Shown here one piece after another: positions 1,222-10,181 of a stretch of DNA of 10,243 bases. The notes under the pieces were generated by a model, which saw nothing but the letters and a program-made list of their open reading frames with translations, was not told the DNA's origin and searched no databases. How positions within the stretch are numbered: position 1 is the first letter of the stretch; each line of letters opens with the position of its first letter. The DNA lies in NCBI GenBank assembly GCA_016871655.1, contig VHCR01000039.1, positions 1 through 10,243 on the forward strand, written 5' to 3'. Source of the DNA: Verrucomicrobiota bacterium. Lineage in GTDB: Bacteria; Verrucomicrobiota; Verrucomicrobiia; Chthoniobacterales; UBA6821. The position numbers and the translations under genes were made by a program.

Positions 1222-1242
1222 GCTAGGCGCAGAGCACCTAGC
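1222..1242 (-). terminator. Hairpin overlapping the brnQ copy 1 stop codon
   Basis: On the minus-strand transcript the sequence GCTAGGTGC, TCT, GCGCCTAGC forms a 9-bp stem (one U-G pair) with a 3-base loop. The TAG stop codon lies within the 5' arm. No T-run follows, so it is not a classical intrinsic terminator. It could still mark the 3' end of the transcript or protect it from exonucleases. The corresponding position after the second brnQ gene shows no such hairpin. Confidence 0.4.
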
Positions 1243-2380
1243 CCTCCCAGTCACTACTTTCGGGAACCATGGTCAACGAGACAGGGCGATGGCGGTAGAG
1301 CTTCCATAATTTCCATCCCATATTTACTAAAATATAAAAAATTAAAAAGGGATAGATCATAGAGATAATGGGTGCTAATGCTTTCATGATGCCGCCGAAG
1401 CCCAGCATTGCCATTGCGGTGGTGATGGCAATGGTGATGATTAAGGCTGGTAGGTAAGCGAGGCGTCCGCCGAGAAGATCTCGGTGAAGGTACATGCCGA
1501 AGACGGCGGTGAGCGCGATAGCTGTCGTGAGGCAGGCGATCGCAACGGTGATATTGGCCAATCCGCCACCCTCTTTTCCAAGAATTAAAATAGAAAGCGC
1601 GCTAAAAATATCAGCTCGCTCAACTCCAGCAATTGCCGCTCCATGAAAAGAGGCAACAAGGCAGAATCCAGCATAGACTAAAGAGAGCAGTCCGCCTCCA
1701 ATGACGCTGGCTTGCAATCCAAGTTTGATAATAGAGCGCGAGTCAGCTTGTTGCTCAGGGTGCATGCCTTTTTTAAGGCCACTCAAGATGAGTCCCGAAA
1801 GAAAAATAGTTCCTAGCAAATCACATGTTCCATAGCCTGAGAGAAAACCTTGGTTAAAACTTTCTACACGCGTCCATGAAACAGGAAGAAAATTTGTAGG
1901 AGAGAAAAGGCCCTTCACGATGATCGAGAGGAGGAGTGTGATTTTCAAAGGGCCTAAAATTTTTCCTAAAAGATCGATAACAAAACTATTTTTCATTGTG
2001 CAGCAAAACATGATGACCGCACAAAAAAGAGTGAATCCCAAAATAGAAAGAGAAGGAAGATACATTTTGCTAACAGCATAGGAAATTGTGACGCAGCGTG
2101 GAATCAGGCCAAAAGGGCCTATCAAGGTCATGCAGAGGAAGGTCAGTAAAAAAGCAGGGATTTTTCCAAGTGGCGCTAAGAGGAATTTGTAATCGCCATG
2201 ATTCAGTATCGTTCCAAAGAGTCCTAGCAATGGAACTAACACGGCAGTGAGACAAAAACCGAGCAGACTCCAAAAGACTTGATGGCCGCTATCGCGTCCT
2301 AGAATCAAGGGAAAGACAATGTTGCCGGCGCCAAACAACATGGCGAACATCGCAAAGCCGGTGGTTAATACTTTTTTCAT
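1238..2380 (-). CDS. brnQ: Branched-chain amino-acid carrier BrnQ, copy 1
   Basis: This 380-residue, very hydrophobic protein belongs to the LIVCS family of sodium- or proton-coupled symporters that import leucine, isoleucine and valine across the inner membrane. Family signatures are GFAMFAMLFGAGNIVFPL near residues 8-25 (the unwound first helix that binds ligand and cation), GP-x5-PRCVTISYA near residues 88-102, LGPLKITLL near 141, and FLSGYGTCDL near 180. About ten membrane segments are apparent. The protein is shorter than the roughly 440 residues of E. coli BrnQ, with the deficit at the C-terminus, and ends in a hydrophilic tail finishing SDWEG. It shares about 70% identity, without gaps, with its neighbour at 2742-3884. 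The ATG lies inside a perfect inverted repeat (2365-2399), and no Shine-Dalgarno motif precedes it. Family is secure; exact substrate preference cannot be read. Confidence 0.93.
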   Translation of the reverse strand: MKKVLTTGFAMFAMLFGAGNIVFPLILGRDSGHQVFWSLLGFCLTAVLVPLLGLFGTILNHGDYKFLLAPLGKIPAFLLTFLCMTLIGPFGLIPRCVTISYAVSKMYLPSLSILGFTLFCAVIMFCCTMKNSFVIDLLGKILGPLKITLLLSIIVKGLFSPTNFLPVSWTRVESFNQGFLSGYGTCDLLGTIFLSGLILSGLKKGMHPEQQADSRSIIKLGLQASVIGGGLLSLVYAGFCLVASFHGAAIAGVERADIFSALSILILGKEGGGLANITVAIACLTTAIALTAVFGMYLHRDLLGGRLAYLPALIITIAITTAMAMLGFGGIMKALAPIISMIYPFLIFYILVNMGWKLWKLYRHRPVSLTMVPESSDWEG

Positions 2381-2399
2381 GAGATGAAAAAAGTATTAA
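2365..2399 (-). promoter_or_regulatory. Perfect palindrome enclosing the brnQ copy 1 start codon
   Basis: TTAATACTTTTTTCAT (2365-2380) and ATGAAAAAAGTATTAA (2384-2399) are perfect 16-bp inverted arms around a 3-base spacer GAG. In the mRNA the 3' arm is the first five codons of brnQ (MKKVL) plus one base, and the 5' arm would pair with it, burying the AUG in an A/U-rich stem with loop CUC. There is no Shine-Dalgarno motif in the loop. The opposite strand also reads ATG-AAA-AAA-GTA-TTA and ends after eight codons at TAA. The structure is seen directly. A role in translation control or as a protein-binding palindrome is inference, supported by the equivalent at 3870-3902. Confidence 0.65.
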
Positions 2400-2427
2400 G
2401 TAACGAGTAACGAGTAAAGAGTAATGG
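2400..2427. repeat. Heptamer tract upstream of brnQ copy 1, four units
   Basis: On the plus strand the units are GTAACGA, GTAACGA, GTAAAGA and GTAATGG, directly adjoining the start-codon palindrome. On the brnQ-sense strand they read as TTACTCN-type units running towards the start. The remaining part of the 361-base gap 2381-2741 is about 33 bases of unassigned sequence (2428-2460), the palindromic element at 2461-2722, and a short A/T-rich link to the second brnQ stop. Confidence 0.75.
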
Positions 2428-2460
2428 GTGGAGAATAACTAGTGCGTTGGGAATTCGCTA

Positions 2461-2722
2461 ATGCGGATGAAGAGCAAGGAGCGACGGCGCACAGCGGCTG
2501 AGTGTATAGTGTATTAAATTGACAAGGGCATGTTAGAAGCGCTGAAATTTTTTCTTAGAACAAGGCCGAAGATCGAAGCGCTATCCGAAGATAACGTGAG
2601 ATCTGAGAACGCAGTTCTAGGGAAAAAGAGCAAGCTTATCGCGTGCCCTTTTCAATTTAATACACTATATATGGAAATACTCGATGACGCGAGCACCGAC
2701 GCGACGCAGATCTTCGCCGCAT
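2461..2722. mobile_element. Long-palindrome, MITE-like element between the two brnQ genes
   Basis: The sequence folds back on itself. The 28-base arms at 2505-2532 and 2642-2669 match in inverted orientation at 26 positions, with core TATAGTGTATTAAATTGA. Outside them ATGCGGATGAAGA at 2461-2473 faces its near-complement ending at 2722. Inside them TTTTTCTTAGAAC on the left faces a similar TTTTTCCCTAGAAC on the right. The element carries no transposase and no convincing frame. A diverged relative lies at 556-788. This size, structure and intergenic placement fit a non-autonomous miniature inverted-repeat element or a large palindromic intergenic repeat. A clear target-site duplication was not found, although the arms begin with TATA, so a TA duplication cannot be excluded. 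The outer boundary is uncertain. Confidence 0.55.
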
Positions 2723-2741
2723 CAGTAGAATTTACAATGTG

Positions 2742-3884
2742 CTATCCTTCCCAATCACTTGTTTCGGGAGTGATCGTCAACGAAACCGGACGATGGGTTT
2801 TGAGTTTCCACCATTTCCAGAGGAGGTTGCCAAGGATATAAACAATCAAGATTGGATAAAGTACCTCAATGATCGGGCTGACAAATTTCATGATGCCGCT
2901 AAACCCGAGAGAGGCGATGGCAGCGGTGATGAGAGTCGTGATGATCAAGGAAGCAAGATAGCTGAGTCGACCAGCCAAGAGATCTTTGTGTAGGTACATC
3001 GCGAACATGGCTGTCAACGCAATCGCTGTAGTGAGGCAAGCAATCGCAACAGTGAGGTTAGCGAAAGCGCCACCAGCTTCTCCCAAAATTAAAATCGTTA
3101 ACGAGCTGAAAATGTCAGCTCGCTCGACGGAGGCAAGCTGAGCTCCATGCAAGCCTGAGGCGAGACAAAAGCCCGCGTAGACGAGAGACAAAAGTAAACC
3201 GCCGATGAGGCTAGCTTGCAGGCCGAGTTTGATGATTGCACGCGCATCTTGTTGTTGCTCGGGGTGGAGACCTTGACGCAGGCGACTTAAAATCAGACTT
3301 GAAAGAAAAATAATGGCAATCAAATCACACGTGCCGTAACCAGAAAAAAGTCCCAAGCGAAAACCCTCCATTTTAGTCAATGTAACAGGCATCATGGCTG
3401 CTGGAGCAAAGATACCTTTGACAATAATTGAAAAGAGAAGCGTAATTTTCAAAGGCCCCAAAAATTTTCCCAGCAAATCGATGATGAAACTATTTTTAAT
3501 GGTGCAGAGAAAAATGAGCACGGCACATCCGCTGCTAAAAGCCCAGATGGGAATAGCAGGCAAGTACGATTTAATGGCTGCATAAGAAATGGTGACGCAG
3601 CGCGGAGTGAGTGCTAGTGGCCCTAGCAAGATCATGCATATAGTGATAACGAGGAAAGCGGGGACTTTTCCCAGTGGAGCTAAGAGGCATTTGTAATCGC
3701 CATGATTTAACATAATGGCGAAAAGCCCCAGGAGAGGGACAAGTACGGCGGTAATACAAAAACCAAGTAGACCAAAAAAAAGTTGATGGCCGCTATCGCG
3801 ACCTAAAATTAATGGGAAAACAACATTGCCAGCGCCAAATAACATAGCGAACATAGCAAAACCTGTAGTCAGTACTTTTTTCAT
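2742..3884 (-). CDS. brnQ: Branched-chain amino-acid carrier BrnQ, copy 2
   Basis: This LIVCS-family symporter of 380 residues is collinear with the copy at 1238-2380; about 109 substitutions were counted by eye. Conserved blocks include the first helix GFAMFAMLFGAGNVVFPL, PRCVTISYA near residue 94, LGPLKITLL near 141, FSGYGTCDL near 180, IIKLGLQAS near 219, VAIACLTTAIALTA near 280, and the terminal HRPVSLT...SDWEG. Differences concentrate in membrane segments around residues 100-130 and 155-200, so the copies may differ in preference for leucine, isoleucine and valine, or in affinity. They are tandem paralogs in the same direction, separated by 361 bases holding a palindromic element, so each may have its own promoter. 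The start codon sits in a second palindrome (3870-3902), without a Shine-Dalgarno motif. No truncation or frameshift is visible. Confidence 0.93.
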   Translation of the reverse strand: MKKVLTTGFAMFAMLFGAGNVVFPLILGRDSGHQLFFGLLGFCITAVLVPLLGLFAIMLNHGDYKCLLAPLGKVPAFLVITICMILLGPLALTPRCVTISYAAIKSYLPAIPIWAFSSGCAVLIFLCTIKNSFIIDLLGKFLGPLKITLLFSIIVKGIFAPAAMMPVTLTKMEGFRLGLFSGYGTCDLIAIIFLSSLILSRLRQGLHPEQQQDARAIIKLGLQASLIGGLLLSLVYAGFCLASGLHGAQLASVERADIFSSLTILILGEAGGAFANLTVAIACLTTAIALTAMFAMYLHKDLLAGRLSYLASLIITTLITAAIASLGFSGIMKFVSPIIEVLYPILIVYILGNLLWKWWKLKTHRPVSLTITPETSDWEG

Positions 3885-3902
3885 GGGATGAAAAAAGTAC
3901 TG
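3870..3902 (-). promoter_or_regulatory. Perfect palindrome enclosing the brnQ copy 2 start codon
   Basis: CAGTACTTTTTTCAT (3870-3884) and ATGAAAAAAGTACTG (3888-3902) are perfect 15-bp inverted arms around GGG. Compared with the palindrome at 2365-2399, two positions differ in the coding arm (Leu codon CTG here, TTA there). Both are matched by complementary changes in the non-coding arm, so pairing is preserved in each copy. The opposite strand again reads ATG-AAA-AAA-GTA and stops after eight codons. Compensated change argues for selection on pairing, or for arm-to-arm correction during replication. Confidence 0.65.
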
Positions 3903-3903
3903 G

Positions 3904-3938
3904 GTAATGAGTAATGAGTAAAGAGTAACGAGTAAAAA
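3904..3938. repeat. Heptamer tract upstream of brnQ copy 2, five units
   Basis: On the plus strand the units are GTAATGA, GTAATGA, GTAAAGA, GTAACGA and GTAAAAA. They begin one base outside the start-codon palindrome and keep the same order and orientation relative to brnQ as the tract at 2400-2427. The tract occupies most of the 75-base divergent gap to the plus-strand gene at 3960, so any promoters for both genes must overlap or adjoin it. Confidence 0.75.
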
Positions 3939-7353: not shown

Positions 7354-7364
7354 GCTGGAATATA

Positions 7365-7392
7365 GTGAAGGGTAAAGAGTGGATGGTAAATC
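7365..7392. repeat. Heptamer tract upstream of the ABC permease, four units
   Basis: On the plus strand the units are GTGAAGG, GTAAAGA, GTGGATG and GTAAATC, so on the permease-sense strand they read as TTACTCN-type units towards its ATG. GGGTAAAGAGT at 7370-7380 is the exact inverted match of ACTCTTTACCC at 7441-7451 in the facing tract. The divergent intergenic region could therefore fold into a cruciform-like or long stem structure. Confidence 0.6.
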
Positions 7393-7430
7393 TTAATTTA
7401 ACCGCAGCCTTCAGTACCCAGCCTTTAGCC

Positions 7431-7472
7431 TGTACTCTTCACTCTTTACCCATTACTCTTCACTCTTTATGG
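7431..7472. repeat. Heptamer tract running into the Lrp-type start codon, six units
   Basis: The units are TGTACTC, TTCACTC, TTTACCC, ATTACTC, TTCACTC and TTTATGG. The last contains the ATG of the gene at 7469. The tract is entirely pyrimidine-rich with A at fixed places and leaves no room for a Shine-Dalgarno motif. It has the same orientation relative to its gene as the brnQ tracts. Confidence 0.7.
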
Positions 7473-7948
7473 ATGCCTTGCTTCAGCTATTACAAAAAGA
7501 TGATCGAACTTCGCCCGCAGAATTAGCGCAACGACTCAATCTTTCAGAAAAAGAAGTTGTTTCCAAAATTCGCCAGTGGGAATCTGATGGAACAATCCTC
7601 GGCTATCACGCTGTCGTTGATCGAGAACGCGTCGATCCTGATCTGGTTACGGCAGTGATTGAGGTAAAAGTGACACCAGAGCGCGAAGGAGGATTTGATC
7701 AAACTGCGCAGCGTATTGCTCGATTTGAGCAGGTAGAGGATGTTTATTTAATGAGCGGCGGTTATGATGTGCTGGTGACCGTTCGTGGACAGTCCTTGCG
7801 TGATGTTGCGAATTTTATCACTAACAGGTTAAGCGCGATGGAAGGCGTGCAGTCCTGCACGACGCGCTTTCGCCTCAAGACTTACAAAGAAAATGGAATT
7901 CTCCATGGCATGGAGGAGAAATGCGAGCGACTTGCTGTGGCGCCATAG
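7469..7948 (+). CDS. Lrp/AsnC family transcriptional regulator, AlaR (YugG)-like
   Basis: This 159-residue regulator has an N-terminal winged helix-turn-helix at residues 14-48 (SPAELAQRLNLSEKEVVSKI, then a GTILGYHAVVD wing). A RAM amino-acid sensing domain follows at about 61-138, including AVIEVKVTPEREGGFDQTAQRI, VEDVYLMSGGYDVLVTVRG and FITNRLSAMEGVQ. The ligand-binding turn usually lies around the GGYD and the MEGVQ loop. The extended tail ending RLAVAP and the KVTP-x4-GFD block recall Bacillus subtilis AlaR (YugG), which controls the alanine transaminase next to it. The aminotransferase gene downstream supports that reading. Such proteins form octamers or larger oligomers that bind operators in the presence or absence of an amino acid. 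Operators here could lie in the 7354-7468 region shared with the ABC operon; autoregulation is likely but not shown. Confidence 0.9.
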   Translation: MDALLQLLQKDDRTSPAELAQRLNLSEKEVVSKIRQWESDGTILGYHAVVDRERVDPDLVTAVIEVKVTPEREGGFDQTAQRIARFEQVEDVYLMSGGYDVLVTVRGQSLRDVANFITNRLSAMEGVQSCTTRFRLKTYKENGILHGMEEKCERLAVAP

Positions 7949-8106: not shown

Positions 8107-9330
8107 ATGAACACCCGCCTCTCATCAGTCGTCCAACAAATTCCTAAATCAGGCATTCGTGATTTTTTTGATATCGTTCAAACGATGAAGGATGTCATAT
8201 CGCTTGGTATCGGCGAGCCTGATTTTGTCACGCCATTGCATATCCGCGAGGCAGCGATCTATGCGCTAGAGCGCGGGAAAACTTCCTACACGGCTAATCT
8301 CGGAACGTTGCGTCTCCGCCATGCAATTGCGACTTATTTGGGGAAGCATCTCTGCGTTGACTATCATCCTAAAAATGAAATCCTTGTGAGCGTCGGCGTT
8401 TCGGAAGCAATCGACTTAGCCCTGCGAGCCTTGATCAATCCGGGAGATGAAGTCCTCTATCACGAGCCGTGTTATGTTTCGTATGGGCCTACTATCACGC
8501 TTGCCGGGGGGCATCCTGTGCCCGTGCCAACCCGGTTTGAAGAAAATTTTGAGCTTAACATCGCTGATTTAGAAAAAGCGGTGACAAAGAAAACAAAAAT
8601 CTTGATGTTGAATTTTCCGAGTAATCCTACAGGAGCCTCCATCACCGCAGAAAAATTGGAAGAGCTTGCTCGTTTTTGTGAAAAGCATGACCTCATTGTT
8701 TTATCCGATGAGATCTACAGCGAGTTGACGTACGATGGGGTGACACATCATTCGATTGCCGCGATGCCGGGGATGAAGGATCGAACGATCTTGCTGCACG
8801 GTGTTTCCAAGGCCTTCGCGATGACCGGATGGCGAATCGGCTTTGCATGCGGGCCAGCTGATATCATTGATGCGATGATGAAAATTCATCAATATGCCAT
8901 TCTTTGCGCTCCGATCATGGGGCAAGAGGCAGCAGTGGAAGCGTTAGAGCGTGGCGAATTTAGCGTGAAACAAATGCGCGACGAATATGAACACCGTCGC
9001 AATTTTGTCGTAGCTGCCTGTCGTGACATGGGCCTCCCTTGCTTGATGCCACAAGGAGCGTTCTACATTTTCCCAAACATCACCAAATATGGAATGAGTA
9101 GCAAAGAGTTTGCATTCGAATTACTCCAAGAGAAAAAAATTGCGGTCGTCCCAGGAAGTGCTTTTGGAGCGAGCGGCGAAGGTTTCGTTCGCTGCAGCTA
9201 CGCGACTAGCATGGAGAAGTTGAAAATTGCGATGGAACGACTGGAAGAGTTTTTGAAGGAAAGCTGTTCAGGTTACAGGTTACAGGTTGCAGGTAAAAGT
9301 AAGGCCTCCGGCAAGAATCAAGAAAAATAA
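8107..9330 (+). CDS. Class I/II PLP-dependent aminotransferase, AlaT (YugH)-like
   Basis: This 407-residue cytoplasmic aminotransferase transfers an amino group between an amino acid and 2-oxoglutarate using pyridoxal phosphate. Visible motifs are SLGIGEPDFVTP (32-43), GVSEAIDLALRAL near 97-109, and NFPSNPTGA (169-177, Asn173 on the cofactor ring). Next come DEIYSELTYDG (201-211, Asp201 and Tyr204), GVSKAFAMTGWRIG (232-245, Schiff-base Lys235 and Arg243), and GEGFVRCSYA (357-366, Arg362 for the substrate carboxylate). The start IPKSGIRDFF resembles B. subtilis AlaT, and the AlaR-like gene just upstream makes alanine, or aspartate, the best substrate guess. A TTG at 8023 would add 28 residues, but the ATG at 8107 matches where the family begins. 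The core ends near residue 384 (EEFLKE). The last 20 or so residues, starting SGYRLQVAGK, are encoded by a GGTTACA repeat and lie beyond the fold. No Shine-Dalgarno motif; a long pyrimidine run precedes the ATG. Confidence 0.92.
   Translation: MNTRLSSVVQQIPKSGIRDFFDIVQTMKDVISLGIGEPDFVTPLHIREAAIYALERGKTSYTANLGTLRLRHAIATYLGKHLCVDYHPKNEILVSVGVSEAIDLALRALINPGDEVLYHEPCYVSYGPTITLAGGHPVPVPTRFEENFELNIADLEKAVTKKTKILMLNFPSNPTGASITAEKLEELARFCEKHDLIVLSDEIYSELTYDGVTHHSIAAMPGMKDRTILLHGVSKAFAMTGWRIGFACGPADIIDAMMKIHQYAILCAPIMGQEAAVEALERGEFSVKQMRDEYEHRRNFVVAACRDMGLPCLMPQGAFYIFPNITKYGMSSKEFAFELLQEKKIAVVPGSAFGASGEGFVRCSYATSMEKLKIAMERLEEFLKESCSGYRLQVAGKSKASGKNQEK
9269..9296. repeat. CAGGTTA heptamer tract inside the aminotransferase 3' end
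   Basis: Units CAGGTTA, CAGGTTA, CAGGTTG and CAGGTAA lie within the coding frame and specify residues around GYRLQVAGK. They are the inverted counterpart of the tract at 9366-9396, 70 bases downstream, and pairing would give a stem of more than 20 bp. Confidence 0.75.
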
Positions 9331-9336
9331 AAGATC

Positions 9337-9364
9337 CACTCTATCAACGAGTGAATAAATTTTT
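9337..9364 (+). terminator. Weak terminator-like hairpin after the aminotransferase
   Basis: CACTC (9337-9341) and GAGTG (9349-9353) form a 5-bp stem around a 7-base loop, followed by AATAAA and TTTTT. It lies in the loop of the larger heptamer inverted repeat. The stem is short, so intrinsic termination is possible but weak. Confidence 0.25.
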
Positions 9365-9365
9365 G

Positions 9366-9396
9366 CTGTAACCTGTAACCTGTAACCTGTAACCTG
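9366..9396. repeat. CTGTAAC heptamer tract upstream of dedA, four units
   Basis: Four perfect units CTGTAAC (9366-9372, 9373-9379, 9380-9386, 9387-9393) and a partial CTG end five bases before the dedA ATG. The tract replaces any ribosome-binding motif. It is complementary to the tract at 9269-9296, so an aminotransferase-dedA readthrough transcript could form a long stem just upstream of the dedA start. Confidence 0.8.
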
Positions 9397-9401
9397 AGTC
9401 A

Positions 9402-10052: not shown

Positions 10053-10064
10053 TTTCGTTACAAA

Positions 10065-10178
10065 AAGTTGAAGTTAAAAGTTGAAGTTGAAGTTAAGACT
10101 CGCCTTCGGCGAAAAGGTAAAAGAGCCTTTTTATTCGCGAAGCGCACAAAACTTAAACTTAAACTTTTAACTTCAACT
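10065..10178. repeat. AAGTTG/CAACTT hexamer tracts in inverted orientation after dedA
   Basis: The left tract (about 10065-10097) consists of AAGTTG and AAGTTA units. The right tract (about 10149-10178) is its near-perfect inverted complement, made of AACTTA, AACTTTT and AACTTC units. Pairing would give a stem near 28 bp with about three mismatches, enclosing the terminator-like hairpins at 10101-10133. This is a third short-repeat family, distinct from the two heptamer families, in the same kind of intergenic position. Confidence 0.7.
10101..10133 (+). terminator. Terminator-like double hairpin after dedA
   Basis: CGCC-TTC-GGCG (10101-10111) is a compact stem-loop. It is followed by AAAAGG (10112-10117) facing CCTTTT (10126-10131) with further T residues. 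The second stem with its T-run fits an intrinsic terminator for dedA, and A residues on the other side would allow bidirectional action. Confidence 0.45.
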
Positions 10179-10181
10179 CTT

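Follow-up and report, generated by a model that had tools for sequence, protein, structure and literature searches.

Start codons of tandem brnQ genes in a Verrucomicrobiota lineage lie in covarying inverted repeats: a possible lock on translation

The question raised by the locus described here is why two neighbouring transporter genes should each carry, just in front of the start codon, a mirror image of their own first codons. The locus lies in a 10,243-nt stretch of a Verrucomicrobiota genome from the order Chthoniobacterales (GCA_016871655.1, contig VHCR01000039.1; hereafter the window, meaning this whole stretch) and consists of the tandem paralogues brnQ-a (1238..2380, minus strand; Pfam PF05525, E-value 1.1e-58) and brnQ-b (2742..3884, minus strand; PF05525, E-value 2.5e-60), which encode branched-chain amino acid permeases and are 71% identical. 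A repeat search of the window returned exactly the two inverted repeats around the brnQ ATGs that had been proposed in a preliminary description of the sequence, both 100% matched, with arms of 16 nt and 15 nt that are 3 nt apart. The start hairpin of brnQ-a (2365..2399, minus strand; 16 bp) comprises a coding arm (2365-2380, with the ATG at 2380-2378), a loop (2381-2383), and an upstream arm (2384-2399), and that of brnQ-b (3870..3902, minus strand; 15 bp) comprises a coding arm (3870-3884, with the ATG at 3884-3882), a loop (3885-3887), and an upstream arm (3888-3902). In gene direction, i.e., on the minus strand, they read TTAATACTTTTTTCAT-CTC-ATGAAAAAAGTATTAA and CAGTACTTTTTTCAT-CCC-ATGAAAAAAGTACTG, respectively. 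In each leader, the upstream arm is the reverse complement of the gene's own first five codons, and the difference in the first Leu codon (TTA versus CTG) is compensated by complementary changes in the upstream arm, as the preliminary description had noted. Its remark that the mirrored arm encodes MKKVL on the opposite strand was correct but is a consequence of the palindrome; the opposite-strand frames, inspected by eye, stop after eight codons (MKKVLSNE*, MKKVLGNE*).

Six genomes of the genus were compared (G000 to G005, all metagenome-assembled), with G000 (1.8 Mb, 350 contigs) being the source of the window on its contig C39. brnQ was present in five of the six genomes and was not found in G001. 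In all six brnQ copies of the three species G000, G004, and G005, the ATG is situated in the same hairpin, perfect or near-perfect, with arm sequences that differ. Three main versions of the arms exist, with coding sides ...GTACTG, ...GTATTAA, and ...ATAATGA, and each is matched by its own upstream arm. In brnQ-a of G004 and G005, which codes for MKKIMI instead of MKKVLT, the upstream arm is altered in step (TCATTATTTTTTTCAT-CCC-ATGAAAAAAATAATGA), and the brnQ-b hairpins read CAGTACTTTTTTCAC-CTT-ATGAAAAAAGTATTG in G004 and CAGTATTTTTTTCAC-CTC-ATGAAAAAAGTACTG in G005. Covariation of the arms, proposed earlier as a check on the hairpin, was found in two further species and in both paralogues, and the structure is therefore maintained.

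The covariation set comprised seven distinct hairpins, as brnQ-a of G004 and G005 is identical over 35 bases and was entered once. Standard pairs were found in 92.9% of 112 cells (shuffled 89.7 ± 1.0; 3 of 500 as high), and the 13 interior pairs were paired in 91 of 91 cells. Three pairs were changed on both sides (shuffled 0.9; 11 of 500 as high), and the covariation score was 0.182 (shuffled 0.099 ± 0.021, reached in 0 of 500; 0.006–0.088 for slid structures). One-sided interior changes numbered four, all leaving G-U, and the loop was CYY in sense orientation in 7/7 distinct hairpins. Fourfold-site identity was 0.33–0.44 between paralogues, 0.49–0.54 between G000 and G004/G005 orthologues, and 0.72–0.73 between G004 and G005; with fourfold sites this diverged, an unconstrained upstream arm should have drifted. 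Drift of a neutral upstream arm was simulated for the six gene hairpins with tree distances taken from the fourfold-site values, starting from one of the three arm versions at random and holding the coding arms as observed. The full 78/78 interior pairs never appeared in 100,000 runs when the rate was left at its full value or lowered to one half or one quarter; at one tenth, the share of runs reaching them was 2e-5. Since simulated neutral drift almost never reaches the observed pairing, these sequences indicate that the upstream arm is actively kept in step with the coding arm.

Perfect inverted repeats (arms of at least 12, loop of at most 12) were counted in samples of the genomes. The G000 sample (286,753 bases, i.e., the window plus 20 stretches, 16% of the genome) contained 15 such repeats, compared with an average of 1.3 over three Markov-1 random versions. 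Apart from the two at brnQ, none was centred on a listed ORF (open reading frame) start, and one of the remainder (L075, znuA) had a start codon within its arm. The G004 sample (331,074 bases), which does not include the brnQ-a start, contained 11; one of them covers the start of a 74-codon ORF that may not be real, and no ORF of at least 100 codons has its start covered. The brnQ-b hairpin of G004 has no perfect 12-bp arm (one G-U, one C-A). Three repeats were present in the G005 sample (235,029 bases; one at brnQ-a, one at the znuA core) and three in the samples of G001–G003 (297,192 bases; none centred on a start). Perfect stems of at least 10 bp covering the start codon were found in 6 of 949 genes, called by a simple ORF rule, versus 1 of 944 control ATGs in the samples of the six genomes. 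Three of the six belong to brnQ, one to a dnaA gene, and the remaining two, which are species-specific, to znuA (G000) and lpxA (G004). The dnaA case (G004) was rejected, as its start is probably mis-called: four relatives match only from residue 51–57 on. Likewise, a hairpin at L089 (G000) was discarded, as it adjoins a tRNA-Gly gene (855-928) and marks no real start. In G000, a perfect palindrome of 18 bp (L075 14737-14776) contains the start of znuA; the core of this palindrome (TTGATAA..TTATCAA; presumably Zur/Fur-like) is shared by G000, G004, and G005, with the ATG-covering extension in G000 only; the lpxA start palindrome of G004 has 10 bp and is found neither in G000 nor in G005.

Searches with exact core patterns in 12 and in 213 genomes matched only brnQ sites, with the exact pattern missing variants and the 213-genome pattern missing the brnQ-b hairpins of G004 and G005. 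A covariance model of the hairpin, run on 22 genomes of the family (150 of 221–1654 candidates scored per genome), gave strong matches only at the eight known copies, plus four weak matches (E 0.13–0.92). As far as searched, the start hairpin is restricted to brnQ, and a dispersed repeat or mobile palindrome was not supported, the exact-core and strong model matches being confined to brnQ.

In the predicted mRNA fold, the stem has 15–16 pairs and a CUC or CCC loop, with the AUG forming the innermost pairs. With a 60-nt leader at 37 °C, the G of the AUG was predicted to be unpaired with a probability of 0.0001–0.0003 and the U with 0.04–0.17. Without a leader, the AUG was predicted to be open in all six copies (G unpaired 0.91–0.97), and with a 3-nt leader it was open in four copies and partly paired in brnQ-a of G004 and G005. 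The burial of the AUG claimed in the preliminary description is hence predicted by folding, but the lack of an exposed Shine-Dalgarno (SD) motif, claimed alongside it, is not special in these genomes: among called genes of G000, SD-like 4-mers were rarer near the start (20/255 at -20..-4 vs 36/255 at -60..-44). The stems had predicted energies between -13.5 and -16.2 kcal/mol at 37 °C, reaching zero only at ~75–87 °C, so temperature alone would not open them, and the temperature-tuned regulator that had also been suggested is disfavoured. Directly upstream of the brnQ-a hairpin lies an array of the heptad TTACTCN in gene direction (2399..2424, minus strand; TRF period 7, 3.7 copies), and a second array (3896..3936, minus strand; TRF period 7 and 14) lies immediately upstream of the brnQ-b hairpin and overlaps its outer end; both were unpaired in the predicted folds.

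The reading we favour, with a probability of about one half, is that the hairpin is a maintained RNA lock on translation of leader-bearing brnQ mRNA, with selection on RNA ranked ahead of homogenisation of DNA. From the sequences we infer a constraint on RNA pairing whose effect would be translational control. An mRNA starting upstream of the mirrored arm would fold back and bury the AUG in a 15–16 bp stem beside a short pyrimidine loop, and because of this burial basal translation of brnQ would be nearly shut. How the lock might open is a guess: ribosomes or S1 could load on the adjacent unpaired pyrimidine heptad array as a standby site, a landing role that is plausible in this model, or transcripts beginning at the ATG could bypass the stem, so that only read-through (e.g., from brnQ-b into brnQ-a) would be silenced. 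Three observations favour the RNA reading: G-U intermediates are present, the hairpin is restricted to brnQ as far as searched, and two other start palindromes have been lost between species.

Several points weigh against this lock. The loop-closing pair is C-A in 3/7 hairpins, the outermost pair is broken in 3/7, and the next in 2/7. The bias towards G-U is small (4/4, p ~0.06 if all changes were transitions; 4/5, ~0.19 when counting the C-A closing pair). The independent hairpin histories are few and stem from three species only, and related sequences can beat such shuffles without any structure. The three brnQ copies of G002 and G003, which are more distant (62–63% identical), have no hairpin, with apparent starts MSFTQI..., MLFTQI..., and MSLTEV... 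(by eye); these genes lack both arms, and orthologues having lost the upstream arm while keeping the coding arm, which had been named beforehand as evidence against a functional pairing, were not seen among them. For the A of the AUG, folding with a 60-nt leader predicted an unpaired probability of 0.25, but of 1.0 in brnQ-b of G004 and G005 because the closing pair is lost there. Transcripts beginning at the ATG, if they occur, would never form the RNA stem, and a stem of the modelled stability could silence the gene altogether. Lastly, inverted repeats are widespread at gene edges of this lineage, and for this reason a DNA process appears plausible from the sequences.

Such a DNA process is the most serious competitor, possible though on balance doubtful: the palindrome would have arisen from fold-back (template-switch) copying of the gene start and would have been re-perfected repeatedly, leaving an RNA stem without selected function. 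Template switching has been reported to perfect quasi-palindromes in E. coli (PMC7202029) and to homogenise inverted-repeat arms in yeast genes (PMC8604942). The lineage-specific start palindromes, one at lpxA in G004 and one around the znuA start in G000, and the inverted heptad pairs bounding many intergenic regions would fit with it, as would the clustered V4I/L5M/T6I changes between brnQ-a orthologues, which could be one multinucleotide event, clustered changes being described as typical of template switching in the same sources (PMC7202029; PMC8604942). A further point in its favour comes from a block of 381 bases ending 60 bases inside brnQ-b, where G004 and G005 show 20 differences, 7 of which are located in two hairpins (70/381 columns): 2 in loops, 1 at a closing pair, and 4 leaving G-U. 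Against homogenisation, the arms match in all copies yet hold G-U intermediates, i.e., one-sided changes persist, and among the start palindromes seen only that of brnQ is kept over three species, unlike the one at lpxA and the ATG part of the znuA palindrome. The uniform CYY loop orientation also gives no sign of spacer inversion, another reported effect of template switching (PMC8604942).

A quite unlikely alternative would be a leaderless start, with transcription beginning at or just before the ATG and the hairpin silencing only transcripts that enter from upstream. Terminal inverted repeats silence read-through transcripts of the IS10 and IS50 transposase in this manner. The predicted fold without a leader, with its open AUG in six copies, would agree with such a shield, and the depletion of SD-like motifs before starts in the sampled genomes suggests that SD-independent starts are usual. 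As the brnQ copies are in tandem, read-through from brnQ-b would also include the brnQ-a hairpin. On the other hand, no sigma-70-type hexamers, the only type scanned for, were found at the hairpins (3 in 1.8 kb vs 2.3 expected), and a 3-nt leader would still leave the U of the AUG mostly paired in brnQ-a of G004 and G005 (unpaired 0.31–0.32, 37 °C). The ~300 nt upstream of brnQ-b are nearly identical in G004 and G005, more like a leader or a distant promoter; identity of the nearest ~700 nt is 90–100 per 100, which may reflect either conservation of a leader or recent exchange of the tract.

Less probable still is a double-stranded operator bound by a dimeric repressor, e.g., the Lrp/AsnC-type protein encoded near brnQ (7469-7948; AsnC family in the Pfam scan). 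A symmetric site at a gene start, the nearby regulator gene, and the conserved palindrome at the znuA start in the same genomes speak for it; an operator, however, should conserve letters, and in the outer half of the brnQ arms the letters change while symmetry is kept, with the hairpin model matching strongly only at brnQ in the family-wide search. Chance or an assembly artefact is very improbable, for although every source is a metagenome-assembled genome, the same structure with different letters is found inside contigs of three separate assemblies, and chance is rejected by the random-sequence, in-gene ATG, and neutral-drift controls.

The leader of brnQ-b is more elaborate in two of the species. 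A third start hairpin was located ~140 nt upstream of the brnQ-b hairpin in G004 (L002 1340-1374, i.e., G004:C52:89564-89598) and in G005 (L003, G005:C94:17334-17368, reverse strand), holding a mini-ORF (ATG AAA AAA GTG/GTA CTT TAA, encoding MKKVL*) with a strong hairpin after it. According to the predicted minimum folds, the two hairpins of the brnQ-b leader exchange arms in G005 and fold locally in G004. Exact-core and covariance model searches gave no upstream copy with a mini-ORF in the window. A different hairpin (CCTTCT..AGAG/CTCT..AGAAGG) occurs at three G004 places (L057 19637-19672 and 19765-19796; L002, between the two brnQ-b hairpins) and is perhaps a dispersed repeat.

Judging from array positions and orientation, the TTACTC repeats at brnQ are part of a system of inverted heptad arrays that is widespread at gene edges. 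Arrays outside genes with a period of 6–8, 14, or 21 numbered 85 in 287 kb (G000), 74 in 331 kb (G004), and 73 in 257 kb including 22 kb N (G005), and 9 in 200 kb (G001), 3 in 52 kb (G003), and 2 in 50 kb including 5 kb N (G002); densities are overstated where stretches had been chosen for TTACTC arrays, which applies to some stretches of G000, G004, and G003 and most of all to G005, other G000 and G004 stretches having been taken by contig number. Further intergenic arrays in the window are situated at 7364-7469, 9268-9397, and 10063-10181. In G000, G004, and G005, 135 of the 147 arrays within 40 nt of a gene edge were G-rich at a left gene (70/75) or C-rich at a right gene (65/72), so that arrays before starts are mostly pyrimidine-rich and those after stops mostly purine-rich; the pyrimidine-rich arrays of period ~7 mostly end 0–20 nt before the ATG. 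Neighbouring arrays at most 250 nt apart followed the G..C order in 63/70 cases, with 56/63 of those being mutual complements, versus complementary shares of 0.13 (G000), 0.28 (G004), and 0.48 (G005) under random pairing of the same arrays. Unit families comprise TTACTCN, CCTGTAA, CCTACAG, CATCTTC, and CTTCAAC. The repeat before lpxA (L145, L146, L147) was TTACTCG in G004, CCTGTAA in G005, and TTTGTGTTC-like in G000; because it differs between close species, arrays may turn over fast. A TTTACTCA that the heptad array may have in common with the coding start of distant brnQ genes was dropped as probably due to chance. Among other palindromes, a perfect one of 86 bases (43 bp arms, no loop) lies beside short ORFs in G000 (L076 17704-17789).

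A fuller and more tentative account, rather unlikely to hold in all its parts, would join these elements into a 'start mirror': a leader copy of the first codons, born by fold-back copying and kept by selection as a translation lock that tracks the coding sequence, opened by a ribosome or S1 on the adjacent array. This would be set in a lineage where inverted heptad arrays often flank the intergenic regions, and the second mirror and MKKVL* of G004 and G005 would form a two-hairpin switch with arms able to swap partners. Were the lock real, mirroring the first codons into the leader would be a simple and evolvable gene control, and coding sequence and leader would co-evolve, as seen here in the three main versions of the arms found among the two paralogues and three species.

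Nine proteins of the window were scanned against Pfam. Two are the brnQ products and two had no match; the others were assigned as a solute-binding protein, an ABC-type permease, the AsnC-family regulator, an aminotransferase, and a VTT-domain protein, and no transposase family was found among these nine, a subset of the window ORFs. This brnQ was absent from 52/52 other relatives outside the genus (same family and order), and its protein matches outside the genus were a candidate TM6 metagenome-assembled genome (MAG; 53%), Chlamydiae MAGs (38–42%), a Legionellales MAG (36%), and a Bacillota MAG (28%). Missing in near relatives and matched in distant groups, brnQ of this genus suggests a horizontal origin.

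Among the open-access matches listed, none described a start mirror or heptad arrays of Verrucomicrobiota in its title or the start of its abstract, which is weak evidence of absence. In RNA thermometers (ROSE, fourU), the start region is hidden in a stem; the brnQ stems differ in having no SD pairing and a predicted melting at ~75–87 °C, and neither a predicted opening in the growth range, anti-SD pairing, nor an Rfam match was found (no match at gathering score in the window; in the brnQ-b regions L002 and L003 of G004 and G005 only miRNA families, far below gathering scores). Features of an amino acid attenuator were likewise not found in the window, where neither hairpin has a terminator-like site nearby (two were found, both within brnQ-b) and no leader mini-ORF copy is present; in G004 and G005, MKKVL* is followed by its strong hairpin but no T run (by eye). 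Transposase leaders of the IS10, IS50, and IS200 (insertion sequence) type fold back and bury the gene start, and ISPpu9 is reported to have a leader of this kind (PMC8450116). As in these, the brnQ inverted repeat spans the start region, and transcripts with both arms would hide the start codon; unlike in these, the gene downstream is a permease, no transposase was found among the nine scanned proteins, the arm copies the gene's own codons, the AUG lies at the loop, and the arms covary across paralogues.

In tisB, the ribosome-binding site is sequestered and a single-stranded standby stretch ~100 nt upstream is reported to be required (PMC7708055). The brnQ leaders resemble it in a hidden start site with an upstream single-stranded stretch where ribosomes may wait (PMC7708055), and differ in that the array adjoins the hairpin, an adjacency known from sequence alone. 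Heptamer TAACTGA repeats before start codons were described by MacGregor (2015) in Beggiatoaceae, Cyanobacteria, and Bacteroidetes, with a post-transcriptional role involving S1, Csp, or Csr proteins being proposed there (PMC4679880). Both systems share direct heptamer repeats that end a few bases before start codons and few SD motifs (PMC4679880), and the position just upstream of starts places the arrays beside this class. The TAACTGA unit itself was not among the families found, and here, in Verrucomicrobiota, several unit families form inverted pairs round intergenic regions, with a hairpin lying between array and ATG at brnQ. The inverted-pair arrays extend what MacGregor (2015) described to a further phylum and add inverted symmetry to it, which may be the larger story. 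Quasi-palindrome template-switch mutagenesis is alike in making inverted-repeat arms match (PMC7202029; PMC8604942); unlike the proposed lock, it is a mutation mechanism and no regulatory element, and alone it would leave the conservation at brnQ with G-U intermediates unexplained. The brnQ hairpins would provide a clean natural test of whether covariation is caused by RNA selection or by template-switch homogenisation, which is relevant to every case where covariation is taken as proof of RNA structure.

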